A stretch of 53,983 nucleotides of DNA. Source: Streptacidiphilus carbonis. Its GTDB lineage: Bacteria > Actinomycetota > Actinomycetes > Streptomycetales > Streptomycetaceae. The position numbers and the translations under genes are program-made. Below the pieces are notes generated by a model that ran no database searches, was not told where the DNA came from, and saw only the letters and a list, made by a program, of their open reading frames with translations. The first letter of the stretch is position 1; every line of letters starts with the position of its first letter. Shown here in pieces: positions 5,340 to 42,478 of this stretch. Location of the stretch: positions 115,177 to 169,159 of the forward strand of contig NZ_BBPM01000011.1 in the NCBI RefSeq assembly GCF_000787775.1. The letters are read 5' to 3'.

Positions 5340-6695
5340 GTGCATGATGACGCCATGAGCCATGGCGACCAGCGCTTCCACGTCATCGTGCTGTCGAACT
5401 TCGCGAGGGGCTTCGACAAGTACGCGTTCGCCTACGGAAAGGCGGGGATCCCGGAGAGCACCTATCCCGACCGGTTCCACCTGCTGACCCGTGCGGAGCT
5501 GGGCATCGGCGCCGGCAAGGCACAACGCCTGCTGGACCGTCTGTCGATTCCGGGCGACCGGCTGCTGGTGCTGGAAACCACGGTGGACCCCGACGAGTTG
5601 GTGCCCAACGTGTCGACCGGCCTCGGTATGGAGCTGCGCGAGCCTCGTATCCGGTTGTCAGCCGTCCACGAGCTCGACCAGGGAGCTGCGGAGTTCGCGC
5701 TGCGCCCGACGACCGTCGAGGACGCGATGGCCGCCTCCCTGCACCTGCACGGACCTGTACAGCGTCGCTACGCCGACATACGCCCGCGCTCGGTTTCGGT
5801 TCTGCCGGTCGCCTCCGCCTGCCAGGCCAGGTGTTCGTTCTGCTTCTCCTCGGCTTCGATCTCCAGCGATCAGCCGCCGGCTCGGGTTCCGTGGGACGCG
5901 GTCGCCTCCTGGCTGGAGCGCGCCCGTGCGGCGGGTGCCGAGCGTGCGGTGATCACGGGAGGCGGGGAGCCCACGCTCATACCGTTCGAACAGCAGCTGC
6001 GACTGGTGTCCGCCTGCTCGGCGGCCTTCCCGAAGGTCGTGCTGATCACCAATGCGCACACCCTGGCGAAGGGGCAGCACGCGGACCGGGCCGGCCGACT
6101 GGCAGCCCTGAGCGCCGCAGGCCTGAGCGTGCTGGCGGTCTCCCGGCACCACCAGGACGACGCCGTCAGCGAGCGGCTGATGATGCTGCGCACGCCGGTG
6201 GATTCCGTCATCGACACCTGGCGCGTGGAACGTGACCGCTGGCCGGGGCTGCGGATGAGGCTGATCTGCGTGCTCCAGCACGGCGGCGTGGCCGGCGCGA
6301 CCGGAGTCGCCGACTACCTCTCGTGGGCCGCGGCGCTCGGTGTCGAGGAGGTCTGCTTCAAGGAGCTCTACGTCTCCACCAGCACCGAGTCGCTCTACTT
6401 CGACCGCGCCGCCAACGTCTGGAGCCGCGAGCACCAGGTTTCGCTGTCCGTGGTCACGCGGTTCGCCGAGCAGCAGGGCTTCGAACTGGCGAGCCGCCTG
6501 CCCTGGGGCGCGCCGGTCTACCACGGCAGCTGGGACGGCCGGCCGATGCGGATCGCCGCCTACACCGAGCCCAGCCTGTTCTGGGAACGAACCAGCGGGA
6601 TCGCACGCAGCTGGAACGTGATGGCCGACGGACGCTGCTACGCCTCCCTGGAGGATCGGGCCAGCGAGATCCTGCCGGAAGGTGTGGCGGTATGA
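5340..6695 (+). CDS. Radical SAM protein of unassigned subfamily
   Basis: This 451-residue protein has the radical SAM cluster motif CxxxCxxC (C-QAR-C-SF-C, bases 5820-5843, about residues 161-168) and the GGGEPTL strand that follows it in AdoMet radical enzymes. It should bind a 4Fe-4S cluster and cleave S-adenosylmethionine. About 150 residues precede the cluster and form an unusual N-terminal domain beginning FHVIVLSNFARGFDKYAF, which I do not recognise. No SPASM-type Cys cluster is visible at the C-terminus. GTG 5340 is chosen because GAGGAGG (5326-5332) lies 7 bases upstream; ATG 5355 is an alternative. The stop overlaps the start of the next gene (ATGA), so the two are translationally coupled. 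The substrate is unknown. Confidence 0.85.
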   Translation: MHDDAMSHGDQRFHVIVLSNFARGFDKYAFAYGKAGIPESTYPDRFHLLTRAELGIGAGKAQRLLDRLSIPGDRLLVLETTVDPDELVPNVSTGLGMELREPRIRLSAVHELDQGAAEFALRPTTVEDAMAASLHLHGPVQRRYADIRPRSVSVLPVASACQARCSFCFSSASISSDQPPARVPWDAVASWLERARAAGAERAVITGGGEPTLIPFEQQLRLVSACSAAFPKVVLITNAHTLAKGQHADRAGRLAALSAAGLSVLAVSRHHQDDAVSERLMMLRTPVDSVIDTWRVERDRWPGLRMRLICVLQHGGVAGATGVADYLSWAAALGVEEVCFKELYVSTSTESLYFDRAANVWSREHQVSLSVVTRFAEQQGFELASRLPWGAPVYHGSWDGRPMRIAAYTEPSLFWERTSGIARSWNVMADGRCYASLEDRASEILPEGVAV

Positions 6696-38506: not shown

Positions 38507-38800
38507 TCACATGTCGGGGCCGGTCGGTTCGTAGGTCTCGTTGAGGGCGGCCTCGTCGATGGGGTAGTACTCACCGCGGACGCCGCGGACCACATGGTGC
38601 CCGGTGTAGACGCCGATCCAGGTGGAGTGGAGTTCGTCGAAGACCTCGGCGGTGATCTTCGCGTCCCGGTTCGGGCGGGTCGGGTCGACGACCCGGAACG
38701 CGCCGCCGCAGAACTCCCGCATCTCCTCCTGGTTGACGCCGGTCCAGAGGAGCGTGCGGACGGTAACCGGACGCTTCCGGCGCATGGTCACGGACGGCAT
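38507..38800 (-). CDS. Small phage-type protein of unknown function
   Basis: This 97-residue protein begins [20 protein letters not shown] and ends [20 protein letters not shown], a pattern I associate with small actinophage/prophage proteins (a 'PV-x-V-x-A-x-x-W-T-G ... GEYYP' layout). ATG 38800 has AAAGGA upstream with a 6-base spacer. It lies at the left edge of the accessory island, beside a second minus-strand small gene. Its role is unknown; the phage association is by resemblance only. Confidence 0.7.
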
Positions 38801-38958
38801 GTCAGTTCCTTTCCACAGCAGTCTCCTTGTCGCCTGCCCCCGCAGCGGCGACCATGCGGGCGGATTGCTGCCCTGGAGCCGTATGTTGTCAGGCCGCGGG
38901 CCGCCACGACAGCGTAAGACACGTTCCACGCGCGGAGACACGGCAGATTTCTCGGTGC

Positions 38959-39291
38959 TCACACCGCCGAGGCGTCGGGCTGCTCCAGCCATTCGGTGCG
39001 GACGATGTGCCGGGTCAGCACGACCAGGCGGTAGTCGGCGAGCTGTTCCTCCCGGTGCTGCTCCAGCCGGATCTCCAGAGCGTCACGTTCGGTGCCGTAC
39101 TCGACCATCTCCCCGGGCTGCCCGTCGATGACGGCGCGCACGGCGTACTCGACCGTACCGCCGGACAACTGGGTCCGCAGCCGGTCGATCTCGGCGAGCA
39201 GGACGGCGACGTCCGCCGACTCCCAGCGGTCGGTCTCCCCGGCGGCGTGCCTGGAGCGGATGGCTTCGACGGCGGAGGACGGCCGGGTCAT
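38959..39291 (-). CDS. Small hypothetical protein, accessory island
   Basis: This 110-residue acidic, helix-rich protein begins TRPSSAVEAIRSRHAAGETD and has a middle segment DVAVLLAEIDRLRTQL with coiled-coil character. The second half (MVEYGTERDALEIRLEQHRE) reads like a small phage protein. AAGGAG lies 8 bases before the ATG, a strong ribosome binding site. It diverges from the RNA-ligase-like gene across a 156-base spacer. I do not recognise the family. Confidence 0.7.
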   Translation of the reverse strand: MTRPSSAVEAIRSRHAAGETDRWESADVAVLLAEIDRLRTQLSGGTVEYAVRAVIDGQPGEMVEYGTERDALEIRLEQHREEQLADYRLVVLTRHIVRTEWLEQPDASAV

Positions 39292-39447
39292 CGTGCGGGC
39301 TCCTTCTGGCGGCGGCGTCTACTTCTACCAGACCGGCGGGCCCGGCAGTGCCGGGGCGCCTGTGAAATCCGGGCGACGGCAGCCTCCGGACCCGCCTACG
39401 GTGGGTCAGCCCCAGTAGCCCAGCGGTTCGTTGCCCCGGAGACCCCG

Positions 39448-40023
39448 ATGCAGAAGATCCCCACCGTGTTCGTGCGTGACTTCTCCGCCCGCCCGGCATA
39501 CGTCACCGAGCAGCCCGACCCGCGCTGCCGATGGGTCCTGGACGGCGAGGGGACGCCCACGCGCAAGTACGACGGGGCCTGCACCGCGCTGGACGCGGAC
39601 GGCCGCTGGTGGGCCCGCCGCGAGGTCAAGGCGGGCGGGACCCCGCCGCCGGACTACCTGCCGCTGCACACCGACGAGGAGACCGGGAAGACGGTCGGCT
39701 GGGAGCCGATCGAGCAGTCCGGTTTCGCCAGGTGGCACGCGGAGGCCGTCGCCCACTCCGACCTCGCCCCCGGTTCCGAGGGCACCTTCGAGCTGATCGG
39801 CCCCAAGGTCAACGGCAACCCGGAGCGCAGCGAGGTCCACCGCCTGGTCGCGCACGACACGGCGGAGCGCCTCGACGTGCCGGACCGCAGCTTCGCGGGC
39901 ATCCGGGAGACCGTGCTCGCGCTGGCCGCGGCGGACGGCTGCGAGGGAATCGTCTTCCACCACTCGGACGGCCGGAAGGCCAAGATCAAGGCCCGCGACT
40001 TCGGCCCGGCCGACCCGTTCTGA
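39448..40023 (+). CDS. RNA ligase-like nucleotidyltransferase (RLIG1/DUF5565-like)
   Basis: This 191-residue protein has the motifs of covalent nucleotidyltransferases (DNA/RNA ligase superfamily). Motif I is K40-Y-D-G, whose Lys would carry AMP. R57/R58 lie in the strand WWARREVKAGG. Motif III-like EGTFELIGPKVNGNP spans about residues 111-125, motif IV is E166-GIVF, and motif V is KAKIK (177-181). The order and spacing, especially GTFELIGPK-x-x-GNP, resemble the RLIG1/C12orf29 family that joins RNA 5'-phosphate to 3'-OH ends. GGAG lies about 7 bases before the ATG. It heads a run of five small tandem genes. Activity is inferred from motifs, and a search is needed. Confidence 0.75.
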   Translation: MQKIPTVFVRDFSARPAYVTEQPDPRCRWVLDGEGTPTRKYDGACTALDADGRWWARREVKAGGTPPPDYLPLHTDEETGKTVGWEPIEQSGFARWHAEAVAHSDLAPGSEGTFELIGPKVNGNPERSEVHRLVAHDTAERLDVPDRSFAGIRETVLALAAADGCEGIVFHHSDGRKAKIKARDFGPADPF

Positions 40024-40070
40024 GCCCCGCCCGCCGTGCGCGGGCCCGGGTGCCGGGCGAGGGTGGACGC

Positions 40071-40289
40071 ATGAGCGAGACAACGGTGTTCATCGGCATG
40101 CTCGACGCGAGCCAGAGCAGTCGGCAGGTCAGCGCCTCGACCCCGGGCGGAATCCCGGCCGTCCGGGCCTGCGCCAGCCGCCGCGAGGCCGAGGAGTTCC
40201 TCGGCCAACTCGGCCTCGCAGTCGACCTGGACGACGAGGACCGGGTCAGTTGGGACGGCGACCGGGGTGTGTGGCCGGTCGGCCCGTAG
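40071..40289 (+). CDS. Tandem small protein 1 (HPGEW-family, divergent)
   Basis: This 72-residue protein is the first and most diverged of five tandem paralogues. It shares the strand TVFIGMLDASQSSRQVSAST, CAS-R (residues 34-37) followed by a helix, and DLDDEDRVSW near the end, but has VWPV in place of the HPGEW close. The start is preceded by GAGGGTGG-N4-ATG, matching the two next genes. It begins 47 bases after the RNA-ligase-like gene. Function unknown. Confidence 0.7.
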   Translation: MSETTVFIGMLDASQSSRQVSASTPGGIPAVRACASRREAEEFLGQLGLAVDLDDEDRVSWDGDRGVWPVGP

Positions 40290-40481
40290 GCCGTCCGCGC
40301 TAAGCGCGTGGTGGAACCTGCCCACCGTGGTTCAGTCGCAGCCCCCGGGGGCGCGGGGCTCTGCTTGATCAACAGCGCGCGCGACAAGCCCCTTACGGTC
40401 CGCACCCGACGATCCACCCGCGCCCCCGCCCGCGCCCCGACCCGAGGTGCGCCCCGCTGCGCCCCGGGTGAGGCTGGGCCC

Positions 40482-40712
40482 ATGAGCGAGCACCCGGAGT
40501 CCGACAAGCCCGTCTACATCGGCGCCTACGTCCCCCAGGACCGCGACCGCTACGTCCACGTCGTGCGCCCGGACGGTGACACCGTCCGGGCGCTGTGCGC
40601 GAGCCAGGACGACCTCGCGCGCTTCGTCGCGCGCGAGCGCCCCGGCACCGACCTGGACGATCCCGCACAGGTGTACTGGGTGGATCACCCGGGGGAGTGG
40701 TCCGGGCTCTGA
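40482..40712 (+). CDS. Tandem small protein 2 (HPGEW family)
   Basis: This 76-residue member has the full family layout: the strand KPVYIGAYVPQDRDRYVHVV, then CASQDDLARFV, then PGTDLDDPAQVYWVDHPGEW. It is probably a small beta-alpha-beta domain. GAGGCTGG-N4-ATG precedes it. The 192-base spacer upstream contains G/C-rich sequence but no other gene I can support. I do not recognise the family. Confidence 0.75.
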   Translation: MSEHPESDKPVYIGAYVPQDRDRYVHVVRPDGDTVRALCASQDDLARFVARERPGTDLDDPAQVYWVDHPGEWSGL

Positions 40713-40762
40713 CCCGGTCGAGCCGACGTGCGGCCCGCGCCGCTTGGGGCGAGGCTGGCGGT

Positions 40763-40987
40763 ATGGGCAGAAACGCCACCTACCCGGTCGAGATCGGCCC
40801 CCTCGTGGCCGGCGACCGGCACCGCCACGTCCGAATCGAGCGCCCCGGCTCCCCGGCCGTCTGGGAGGCCTGCGCCAGTGGGGCCGACCTGGTCGCCGCG
40901 CTGACCATGTTCCGTCCCGACCTGGACCTGACCGACCAGTCGCAGGTGCACTGGGTCGGCAGCCCGGGGGAGTGGCCGCGCGGCTGA
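40763..40987 (+). CDS. Tandem small protein 3 (HPGEW family)
   Basis: This 74-residue paralogue is closest to the next gene. Shared parts are YPVEIGPLVAGDRHRHVRIE, EACASGADLVAAL, RPDLDLTDQSQVHWV and SPGEW. GAGGCTGG-N4-ATG is repeated exactly upstream, so the duplication included the expression signal. Function unknown. Confidence 0.75.
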   Translation: MGRNATYPVEIGPLVAGDRHRHVRIERPGSPAVWEACASGADLVAALTMFRPDLDLTDQSQVHWVGSPGEWPRG

Positions 40988-41054
40988 GCACGGAGCGTCC
41001 CGGGCCCGTCCGGTTCGACATGCGACCCGGGCCGGACCGAGTCAGGGTGTAGCC

Positions 41055-41285
41055 ATGGCGATACTCAGCGTTCACCCCGTCGAGATAAGCCCGCTGGTCC
41101 CGTGGGACCGCCACCGCCACGTGCGTATGCAGCGCATCGGCGGCGGCGATCCGCTCTGGGAGGCCTGCTCCACCCAGAACGACCTGAGGGCCGCGTTGAA
41201 GCTGTTCCGGCCCGACGTGGACCTCAACGACCCGACCCAGGTGCACTGGGCCGGCGGCCACCCCGGCGAATGGCCGGAGGACTGA
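41055..41285 (+). CDS. Tandem small protein 4 (HPGEW family)
   Basis: This 76-residue paralogue resembles protein 3 over its whole length (HPVEISPLVPWDRHRHVRMQ; LWEACSTQNDLRAALKLFRP; DLNDPTQVHWAGGHPGEW). The two are the most recent duplicates of the set. The upstream signal is CAGGGTGT-N4-ATG. The next family gene begins 2 bases after its stop, so those two are one unit. Confidence 0.75.
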   Translation: MAILSVHPVEISPLVPWDRHRHVRMQRIGGGDPLWEACSTQNDLRAALKLFRPDVDLNDPTQVHWAGGHPGEWPED

Positions 41286-41287
41286 CC

Positions 41288-41566
41288 ATGACCGACGACC
41301 TGGAGGAACTGGACCCGTACCAGGACGAGGACGAGGGGGAGCACCGCGACCCCGGGACCACCGCCGTCTACGTGTTCGCCTACAGTCCCGGCGAGCGCAA
41401 TCGGCAGGTCCGCATCGTGGGCGCCGACGGCGTCGCCGTCACCCGGCCCTGTGACAGCCAGCAGCGGTTCGAGGCACTGGTCGAGATGCACCGCCCCGGC
41501 ATCGACCTGACCGACCCCGAACGCGTCTGCTGGGTGGACCACCCGGGCGAGTGGTCCGGCGTCTGA
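41288..41566 (+). CDS. Tandem small protein 5 (HPGEW family, acidic N-terminus)
   Basis: This 92-residue member has an extra acidic N-terminal tail (TDDLEELDPYQDEDEGEHRD) ahead of the family core (AVYVFAYSPGERNRQVRIVG; DLTDPERVCWVDHPGEW). The start lies 2 bases beyond the stop of the previous gene, with GGAGGA in that gene's end as ribosome binding site. The stop falls in a 15-base tandem repeat. Function unknown. Confidence 0.75.
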   Translation: MTDDLEELDPYQDEDEGEHRDPGTTAVYVFAYSPGERNRQVRIVGADGVAVTRPCDSQQRFEALVEMHRPGIDLTDPERVCWVDHPGEWSGV

Positions 41567-41620: not shown

Positions 41621-42478
41621 TCAGTACTGGTAGAAGCCCCGGCCGGACTTGCGGCCGAGGAGCCCCGCGTCCACCATCCGCTGCAGCAGCGGCGGCGCGG
41701 CGTACAGGGGCTCCTTGTACTCGTGGTACATCGACTCGGCGATGGAGACGATGGTGTCCAGTCCGATGAGGTCGCACAGCCGCAGCGGCCCCATCGGGTG
41801 GGCGCAGCCGGCCTCCATGCCCTTGTCGATGTCCTCGGCCGTGGCCACGCCCGACTCGAACATCCGGACCGCGGAGAGCAGGTAGGGCACCAGCAGCGCG
41901 TTGACCACGAAGCCGGCCCGGTCGCGGGCCCGGATCGGGTCCTTGGCCAGCACCTCGCGGGTGAAGGCCTCGGCGCGGGTCACCGTCTCGGCCGAGGTGG
42001 TGAGCGTCGGGATGATCTCGACCAGCTTCTGCACCGGGGCCGGGTTGAAGAAGTGTATTCCGAGCACCTGCTCCGGCCGGGAGGTCGCCGAGGCCAGCTT
42101 CACGATCGGGATGGAGGAGGTGTTGGACGCCAGGATGGCGTCGCGCCGCTCCACCACCTGGTCCAGGGTCTGGAAGATCGCGCTCTTGACGTCCTCGCGC
42201 TCGGCGACGGCCTCGATGACCAGGTCGCGGTCGGCGAAGTCGGCGAGCTCGGTGGTGAAGGAGATCCGGGCCAGCGCCGCCTCCCGCTCCTCCTCGGTGA
42301 GCTTCCCGCGCTTGACCGCGGTGTCGAACGAGCCGGTGAGCCGGGTGCGGCCGAGCTCCAGGGCCTCGCCACCGGCCTCGGAGACCCTGACGTCGAGTCC
42401 GGCCCGGGCGAACACCTCGGCGATCCCCGACCCCATCAGCCCGCAGCCGACGACCCCTACCCGCGCGATGTCGCTCAC
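41621..42478 (-). CDS. 3-hydroxybutyryl-CoA dehydrogenase
   Basis: This 285-residue NAD(P)-dependent 3-hydroxyacyl-CoA dehydrogenase has the Rossmann motif VGVVGCGLMGSGIAEVFARA and LASNTSSIPIVKLA. The catalytic His is in LGIHFFNPAPVQKLVEI, followed by GFVVNALLVPYL and the C-terminal helical domain ending GRGFYQY. It interconverts acetoacetyl-CoA and 3-hydroxybutyryl-CoA in butyrate/PHB or ethylmalonyl-CoA metabolism. GTG 42478 is the probable start. The frame extends 16 codons further up, without similarity to the family. It diverges from the SDR gene. Confidence 0.93.
   Translation of the reverse strand: MSDIARVGVVGCGLMGSGIAEVFARAGLDVRVSEAGGEALELGRTRLTGSFDTAVKRGKLTEEEREAALARISFTTELADFADRDLVIEAVAEREDVKSAIFQTLDQVVERRDAILASNTSSIPIVKLASATSRPEQVLGIHFFNPAPVQKLVEIIPTLTTSAETVTRAEAFTREVLAKDPIRARDRAGFVVNALLVPYLLSAVRMFESGVATAEDIDKGMEAGCAHPMGPLRLCDLIGLDTIVSIAESMYHEYKEPLYAAPPLLQRMVDAGLLGRKSGRGFYQY

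Follow-up and report, generated by a model that had tools for sequence, protein, structure and literature searches.

The window analysed here is a 54-kb stretch of a Streptacidiphilus genome (labelled G000; positions 115177-169159 of its contig), and our subject is an array of five small genes within it. The array lies behind a gene for a putative RNA ligase, and the locus is flanked by a porphobilinogen deaminase gene (PF01379, E 5e-62) on one side and the gene 41621-42478 on the other. An earlier note, made from the sequence alone, had described this ligase-like gene as heading five co-oriented open reading frames (ORFs) of 72-92 amino acids (aa), and the coordinates confirm that description. 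Genes were called with our own simple caller, and comparisons were made in a sample of one genome per species, many of them drafts, in which G002, G004, G006, G007, G009, G010 and G011 denote other Streptacidiphilus genomes. The locus holds the following genes:

38507-38800, minus strand: phage-family gene (PHROG 1810), 97 aa; conserved next to the array in two further species
38959-39291, minus strand: second minus-strand gene, 110 aa, matching no family significantly; likewise conserved next to the array in both of those species
39337-40026, no strand assigned: ligase-bearing segment of ~690 bp, borders set by eye; in G004 and G010 its place is taken by at most a few tens of bp
39448-40023, plus strand: RLIG1-like (C12orf29-like) ATP-dependent RNA ligase, 191 aa, KYDG motif at residues 40-43
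40071-40289, plus strand: copy 1 of the small family, 72 aa
40482-40712, plus strand: copy 2, 76 aa; AlphaFold model with β-β-β-α-β topology, pLDDT 89.2
40763-40987, plus strand: copy 3, 74 aa
41055-41285, plus strand: copy 4, 76 aa; three species have the identical protein; PHROG 17005 is matched weakly (E 0.021)
41288-41566, plus strand: copy 5, 92 aa; starts 2 bp past copy 4, without a promoter-like element in the window

The five small proteins align over their full length, and together with one relative they share 12 invariant columns that include R-x-V, C, DL-x-D, V-x-W and G-x-W. All five genes have a ratio of nonsynonymous to synonymous substitutions (dN/dS) below 1: pairwise point estimates against the orthologs in two other species range from 0 to 0.57, and copy 4 shows 0 nonsynonymous against 7-8 synonymous changes. 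We call the window type subfamily A. Subfamily B, usually found as one copy per genome with a match in the Kitasatospora-type group g14, was joined to it by profile searches. A more distant subfamily, C, is linked to A/B by profile-profile comparison (probability 91%, E 1e-6); it keeps R-x-V, W and W, and its model has the same topology as that of A (pLDDT 84.5). The window genome contains seven A/B matches and five C matches. C proteins are mostly acidic, with a median pI of 4.7 (n=53).

The proposal that these proteins belong to no described family is supported. Nothing above cut-off was found in Pfam or NCBIfam and PADLOC gave no match; in none of four libraries (Pfam, NCBIfam, PHROG and PADLOC) did a window copy reach a significant match, and 50 family members returned single chance-level Pfam matches, one member each (best E 0.0057). 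The closest link is to PHROG 17005, a phage family of unassigned function, which is matched by all 50 C proteins tested (E<=0.01; best 4.3e-36), whereas among the window copies it is matched by copy 4 at the weak level given above and by none of the other four.

The copies had been described as tandem, and they are indeed five co-oriented relatives; a single recent amplification, however, is not what the protein tree indicates. When the tree is midpoint-rooted, the clade descending from the most recent common ancestor of the array copies takes in 30 of 64 leaves, and the array is therefore not one clade; copies 3 and 4 are sisters (support 0.948). The array therefore looks like an old mixed collection rather than the product of one recent amplification. 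Some relatives are part of longer reading frames, together with an N-terminal region that resembles TPR (E 2.2e-4, narrowly below the cut-off), with GrpE (E 2.5e-20) or with DUF998 (E 4.8e-26). The GrpE and DUF998 fusions have a start codon at the junction and may be artefacts of the gene caller. In three Streptacidiphilus genomes (L067:4428-5333, L128:7067-7963 and L131:6945-7844) the family domain is C-terminal in a protein of 298-301 aa with the TPR-like N-terminus.

A promoter-like element recurs in front of copies 1-4, with TGCG at -34 to -31, A...TG at -11 to -6, five bases and then the ATG. It can be written TGCG-N19-A..(C/G)TG-N5-ATG, a leaderless, sigma-70-like form, and lies at these positions:

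40037-40073, plus strand: element of copy 1, TGCG at -34 to -31, GAGGGTG at -12 to -6, ATG
40448-40484, plus strand: element of copy 2, leaderless, promoter-like
40729-40765, plus strand: element of copy 3, leaderless, promoter-like
41021-41057, plus strand: element of copy 4, leaderless, promoter-like

The strict pattern matches four times in the window, each time at one of copies 1-4, against a mean of 0.01 and a maximum of 1 in 100 shuffles. It is not present upstream of copy 5, of the two minus-strand genes or of the ligase, which has a GGAG site upstream; the orthologs of copy 5 in G004 and G010 have TGCG at -34 and A...T at -11/-7. A relaxed pattern was found upstream of 33 of 66 A/B members (three TPR-fused members of the 69 were left out) and of 4 among 768 other genes from these loci, a comparison in which a member could take any in-frame start ahead of its domain and a control gene only its called start. 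Taken separately, the -10 part was found at 48/66 members against 81/768 other genes, and the -35 part at 33/66 against 10/768.

Passages of a study of S. lividans (PMC8079986) give housekeeping promoters a -10 of TAnnnT and a -35 of nTGACn, with 17% of transcripts leaderless. Compared with the promoter described there, the element shares A/T at -11/-7, a 17-nt spacer and TG in the -35; it differs in its -35, nTGCGn, in the replacement of the first T of the -10 by G/C, and in favouring G at -6 (a preference seen in the 33 members chosen for having TGCG). Counted back from the ATG, this predicted promoter has the geometry of a leaderless sigma-70-type promoter.

The same pattern leads to further members of the family. 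A strict scan of 14 genomes of the genus returned 64 matches against 8 for the reversed pattern, and 30 of the 64 were sorted as family members, including distant C paralogs; this sorting was done by hand from translated ORFs and coordinates, with L190 counted by eye and three identical repeat matches in G010 judged from one translated copy. For the window genome, 8 of 9 matches belong to the family: five A copies and three C members, one of them truncated, which the A/B protein profile had not listed. With a close variant of the pattern, ten Streptomyces-group genomes gave 41 matches against 5 in the control; C genes accounted for 13 of the 30 matches with loci, and three more were assigned to C by coordinates.

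C loci chosen by protein give a similar picture. TGC at -34 together with A/T at -11/-7 was seen in 21 of 27 readable loci of a first set, 3 of these 21 being known beforehand from the pattern and 3 of 30 loci having been dropped for want of a readable frame. A second set had both elements in 15 of 21 readable loci and the -10 only in 4 (6 of 27 were dropped for the same reason, L368 was left out as already known, and L356 is L252 of the first set); at 20 shifted registers its count was 0-1. C upstreams from a viral collection had both elements in 56 of 74 cases, the -10 only in 9 and the -35 only in 2, after 6 of 80 loci had been dropped as duplicates or edge cases and near-identical loci kept. 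In all three sets the start was chosen among in-frame candidates, and gp20 of phage VWB fits the element if its start is taken as an internal ATG. The element is common to paralogs of ~25% identity on chromosome, plasmid and viral-collection DNA.

Subfamily C is found in 228 of 297 Streptomycetaceae genomes, with up to 14 matches each, and A/B in 99. A class-wide draw of 345 genomes gave 33 with C matches, 31 of them in Streptomycetaceae and two, both weak, outside. A search of 72,556 plasmid records with a single C query gave matches in 50, none of which covered over 80% of the query (Streptomyces 47, Streptantibioticus 2, one named Kitasatospora). The C alignment matched 126 stretches in contigs of the viral collection, and 80 of these stretches were fetched. 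Judging from the collection, most of these contigs would be proviruses. C also occurs in the Streptomyces phages Kromp and VWB. On chromosomes, the surroundings of the copies are unrelated between loci. One C copy of the window genome (G000 C124:90691-90927; L204, L265) is 100% identical to a copy in a 98.7-kb contig of the viral collection, and may itself sit in a predicted provirus.

Phage morons are autonomous cargo genes of prophages. Neighbour strands were compared for the 44 C genes of viral contigs that have a called gene on either side: both neighbours are co-oriented in 5 cases, one is opposite in 30 and both are opposite in 9; for 746 other genes of viral contigs the corresponding numbers are 505, 192 and 49 (duplicates and near-duplicate loci kept). 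C genes therefore have a moron-like appearance, with a strand-switch position (39 of the 44 have a neighbour on the other strand) and promoter-like elements of their own. They differ from morons in being present in most Streptomycetaceae genomes as well; for A/B, copy 2 as the query found no phage match.

Taken together, the evidence points to what is probably a family of accessory cassettes, dispersed and equipped with promoters of their own, and carried in part by mobile elements. The five array genes belong to subfamily A of a superfamily of ~75-aa proteins in Streptomycetaceae that share a single predicted fold (β-β-β-α-β; R-x-V, W, W) and would have spread as autonomous cassettes, usually with one leaderless promoter per gene. 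Members of the superfamily occur on chromosomes and, in subfamily C, on plasmids and phage-type DNA as well. The element may be recognised either by an alternative sigma factor or by a housekeeping-type one aided by a dedicated activator; transcription would be leaderless, and a cassette gene could be expressed from an otherwise quiet element, as a moron is. The product would be a small soluble binding protein acting on a host or phage target, most likely with a role in mobile-element conflicts or host adaptation, and the array would be an old chromosomal collection of such cassettes. We also entertain, as a bolder and rather unlikely extension, that phage and plasmid morons throughout Streptomycetaceae share one public promoter, through which a host sigma factor or activator switches on any incoming cassette, and that hosts have collected cassettes into arrays as inherited protection or counter-protection in the contest between mobile elements.

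Subfamily C alone is present, often in several copies, in over three quarters of the Streptomycetaceae genomes surveyed, yet it is known only as an unnamed phage family. The conserved element offers a direct handle on the regulator, the condition and the partner in laboratory Streptomyces and, if the genes are morons, they would open an unexplored side of the conflict between phages and their hosts in the main group of antibiotic producers.

Several observations weigh against the cassette reading. The relaxed pattern is unmatched in 33 of the 66 A/B members, which may have other promoters or wrong starts, and gp70 of phage Kromp does not fit the element at its annotated start. Genes unrelated to the family stand behind 34 of the 64 genus matches and ~25 of the 41 Streptomyces matches, and the element may be a general class of leaderless promoter that is not exclusive to the family. 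The freedom of start choice in the A/B count favours the family, and for the C sets a shift control with equal freedom covers the second set only. Copy 2 as a query returned nothing from phage records or viral contigs, leaving the mobile link to rest on C. B copies look like stable chromosomal genes, and structure searches, for which the RNase H-like fold was a candidate (its first half has the order β-β-β-α-β), gave no significant fold match for the family. We have slightly lowered our confidence in the cassette reading because of the start-choice freedom and because A was not found on phages.

Of the other explanations, a chromosomal stress or developmental regulon, in which a single activator or alternative sigma factor would govern a large set of small genes and the copies on phages and plasmids would be a secondary development, seems to us rather unlikely. 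It would account for the occurrence of the element at unrelated chromosomal groups (HTH regulators in Streptacidiphilus and, by eye, apparent small membrane proteins in Streptomyces) and for the usually single, chromosomal B copies of g14. It is harder to reconcile with C genes on plasmids, with the element upstream of most C genes in viral-collection contigs, and with the unrelated chromosomal surroundings of the copies. That the five ORFs are spurious or decaying, functionless duplicates might be suspected from their shortness and from the absence of a Pfam, NCBIfam or PADLOC family; it is nevertheless very improbable given the dN/dS values of all five, the invariance of the copy 4 protein in three species, the confidently predicted fold and the occurrence of A/B in 99 of 297 genomes.

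The ligase is a separate question. Its identification as RLIG1-like is upheld by matches that agree with one another: Pfam RLIG1 (PF17720; E 1.2e-7, 31.4 bits, cut-off 25), PHROG 14301 'RNA ligase' (E 4.8e-41) and PDB 9c6l 'RNA ligase1' (E 5.5e-10). K40, D42 and G43 of the KxDG motif are invariant across 7 aligned ligases, including that of phage Paola. Homologs with at least 80% coverage occur in 20 phage records, many annotated as RNA ligase, with a best identity of 45%. Compared with RLIG1/C12orf29, the window enzyme passes the Pfam cut-off, has KxDG and aligns with the solved 9c6l structure; it differs in its length of 191 aa, and the Pfam match spans only model positions 190-270 of 324. 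Several bacterial and viral RLIG1 homologs join tRNA halves in vitro, according to passages of PMC11071452. The window ligase therefore represents an enzyme type already known, and it probably acts on broken RNA.

A functional unit of ligase and array, as suggested in the earlier note, is not supported. G004 (S. jeojiense) and G010 keep the interval with the deaminase gene, both minus-strand genes, the five copies and the 41621 gene in the same order, and no ligase was found in either, at the site or elsewhere in the genome (G004 is a draft of ~140 contigs). The array is thus without a ligase in two of the three genomes that have it, and the ligase does not stay with its candidate partners across species. 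The ligase-bearing segment may have been inserted in the window or lost in G004 and G010. In G009 a ligase lies ~3.4 kb from the homolog of the 41621 gene with no array between them, an arrangement that would be in keeping with the ligase having been in the interval earlier. The small family occurs in 14 of 14 genomes of the genus and the ligase in 9; across the 297 Streptomycetaceae genomes the ligase is found in 35, and the family is far commoner. Within g14, 18 genomes have a ligase, and an A/B copy shares its contig in 10 (all at least 42 kb off, from coordinates read by hand) and lies on another contig in 8. Eight genomes of g9, the largest group and by inference Streptomyces, have A/B copies and no ligase match, and three g9 genomes have a ligase (one weak, E 4.7e-4) and no A/B copy. 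Wide occurrence of the small family without ligase or phage genes nearby had been named beforehand as evidence against the link, and for the most part this is what the Streptomycetaceae survey found. Because the array persists in two genomes where no ligase was found, the ligase has no family element of its own and the family is so much commoner, we regard the functional unit as unsupported; the ligase looks like a separate accessory gene, a neighbour rather than a partner.

The remaining alternative is an RNA-repair or defence island in which the small proteins would serve the ligase as cofactors or immunity partners and work with it on broken RNA. Four of the nine Streptacidiphilus ligases do have a family copy 47-524 bp away, and the gene contexts are of two unrelated kinds: co-oriented with the copies in the window, and divergent, with common neighbours, in G002, G006 and G007. 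Copies near the RNA-repair gene RlaP point the same way, one overlapping it by 4 bp and another, in G009, lying ~1.5 kb from it with one gene between. Against this, the ligase-adjacent copies of the window and of G002/G006/G007 are on different branches of the tree, no A/B copy is listed within ~8 kb of the ligase in the other five ligase-bearing genomes of the genus, none of the 18 g14 ligases has one within 42 kb on the same contig, and the array without ligase and the ligase without element count here as well. RlaP (PF10127) is itself present in 269 of 297 Streptomycetaceae genomes, against 35 for the ligase, and the count of its adjacency, 2 of 13 RlaP genes with an A/B copy within 2 kb, covers the genus only. 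We therefore consider a repair island improbable. Adjacency to the ligase is a genus-level oddity and not a rule, and the closeness of family copies to RNA-repair genes, seen in two contexts of the ligase and in one overlap with RlaP, is a weaker lead.

The overlapping pair is in G011 (L050), where the RlaP gene spans 5359-6117 (PF10127, E 2.6e-19) and the family copy 6114-6344, with the promoter-like element of the copy inside the RlaP gene. To judge from coordinates, RlaP forms a tight pair on opposite strands in some genomes. Passages of PMC7824862 describe the RlaP family as working alongside RNA ligases.

The two minus-strand genes had both been called phage-flavoured. This is correct for 38507, whose protein matches PHROG 1810 (E 3.2e-15) and has homologs in 279 phage records. 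The protein of 38959 lends the claim no support: its best PHROG match has E 0.024 and its best NCBIfam match E 0.0092, far under the cut-off, and no phage-record search was made for it. Overall, the interpretation first given to the locus is partly supported. Streptomyces phage Kromp (MH744420.1) has members of both families on one genome: its gp70 is a C protein, and under gp58/gp59 it has a 52% homolog of the protein encoded by 38507. The gene cluster adjoining the locus is presumably of the argC type.

Other genes were met behind the same pattern. In G011, L050:12035-12256 and L217:3093-3326 are look-alikes that encode a different protein of 73-77 aa with the same element, and one of them adjoins a family copy. 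In G010 (C2:534770-559891) there are four occurrences of the pattern, identical in sequence and spaced by about 6-13 kb; the copy that was translated falls in a frame that we take to be polyketide-synthase-like, and these are probably a chance match copied by repeats. Eight Streptomyces-group loci (L375, L379, L385, L394, L396, L398, L399 and L400) have the leaderless pattern before what appear by eye to be membrane-type proteins of ~80, 160 and 350 aa, hinting at a wider regulon. Finally, in five Streptacidiphilus genomes (L196, L203, L213, L214 and L254) an HTH gene, 377-386 aa where complete, has the palindrome TGCGATTCTCGCA in place of TGCG at the promoter register, which is perhaps a putative operator of the HTH gene itself.

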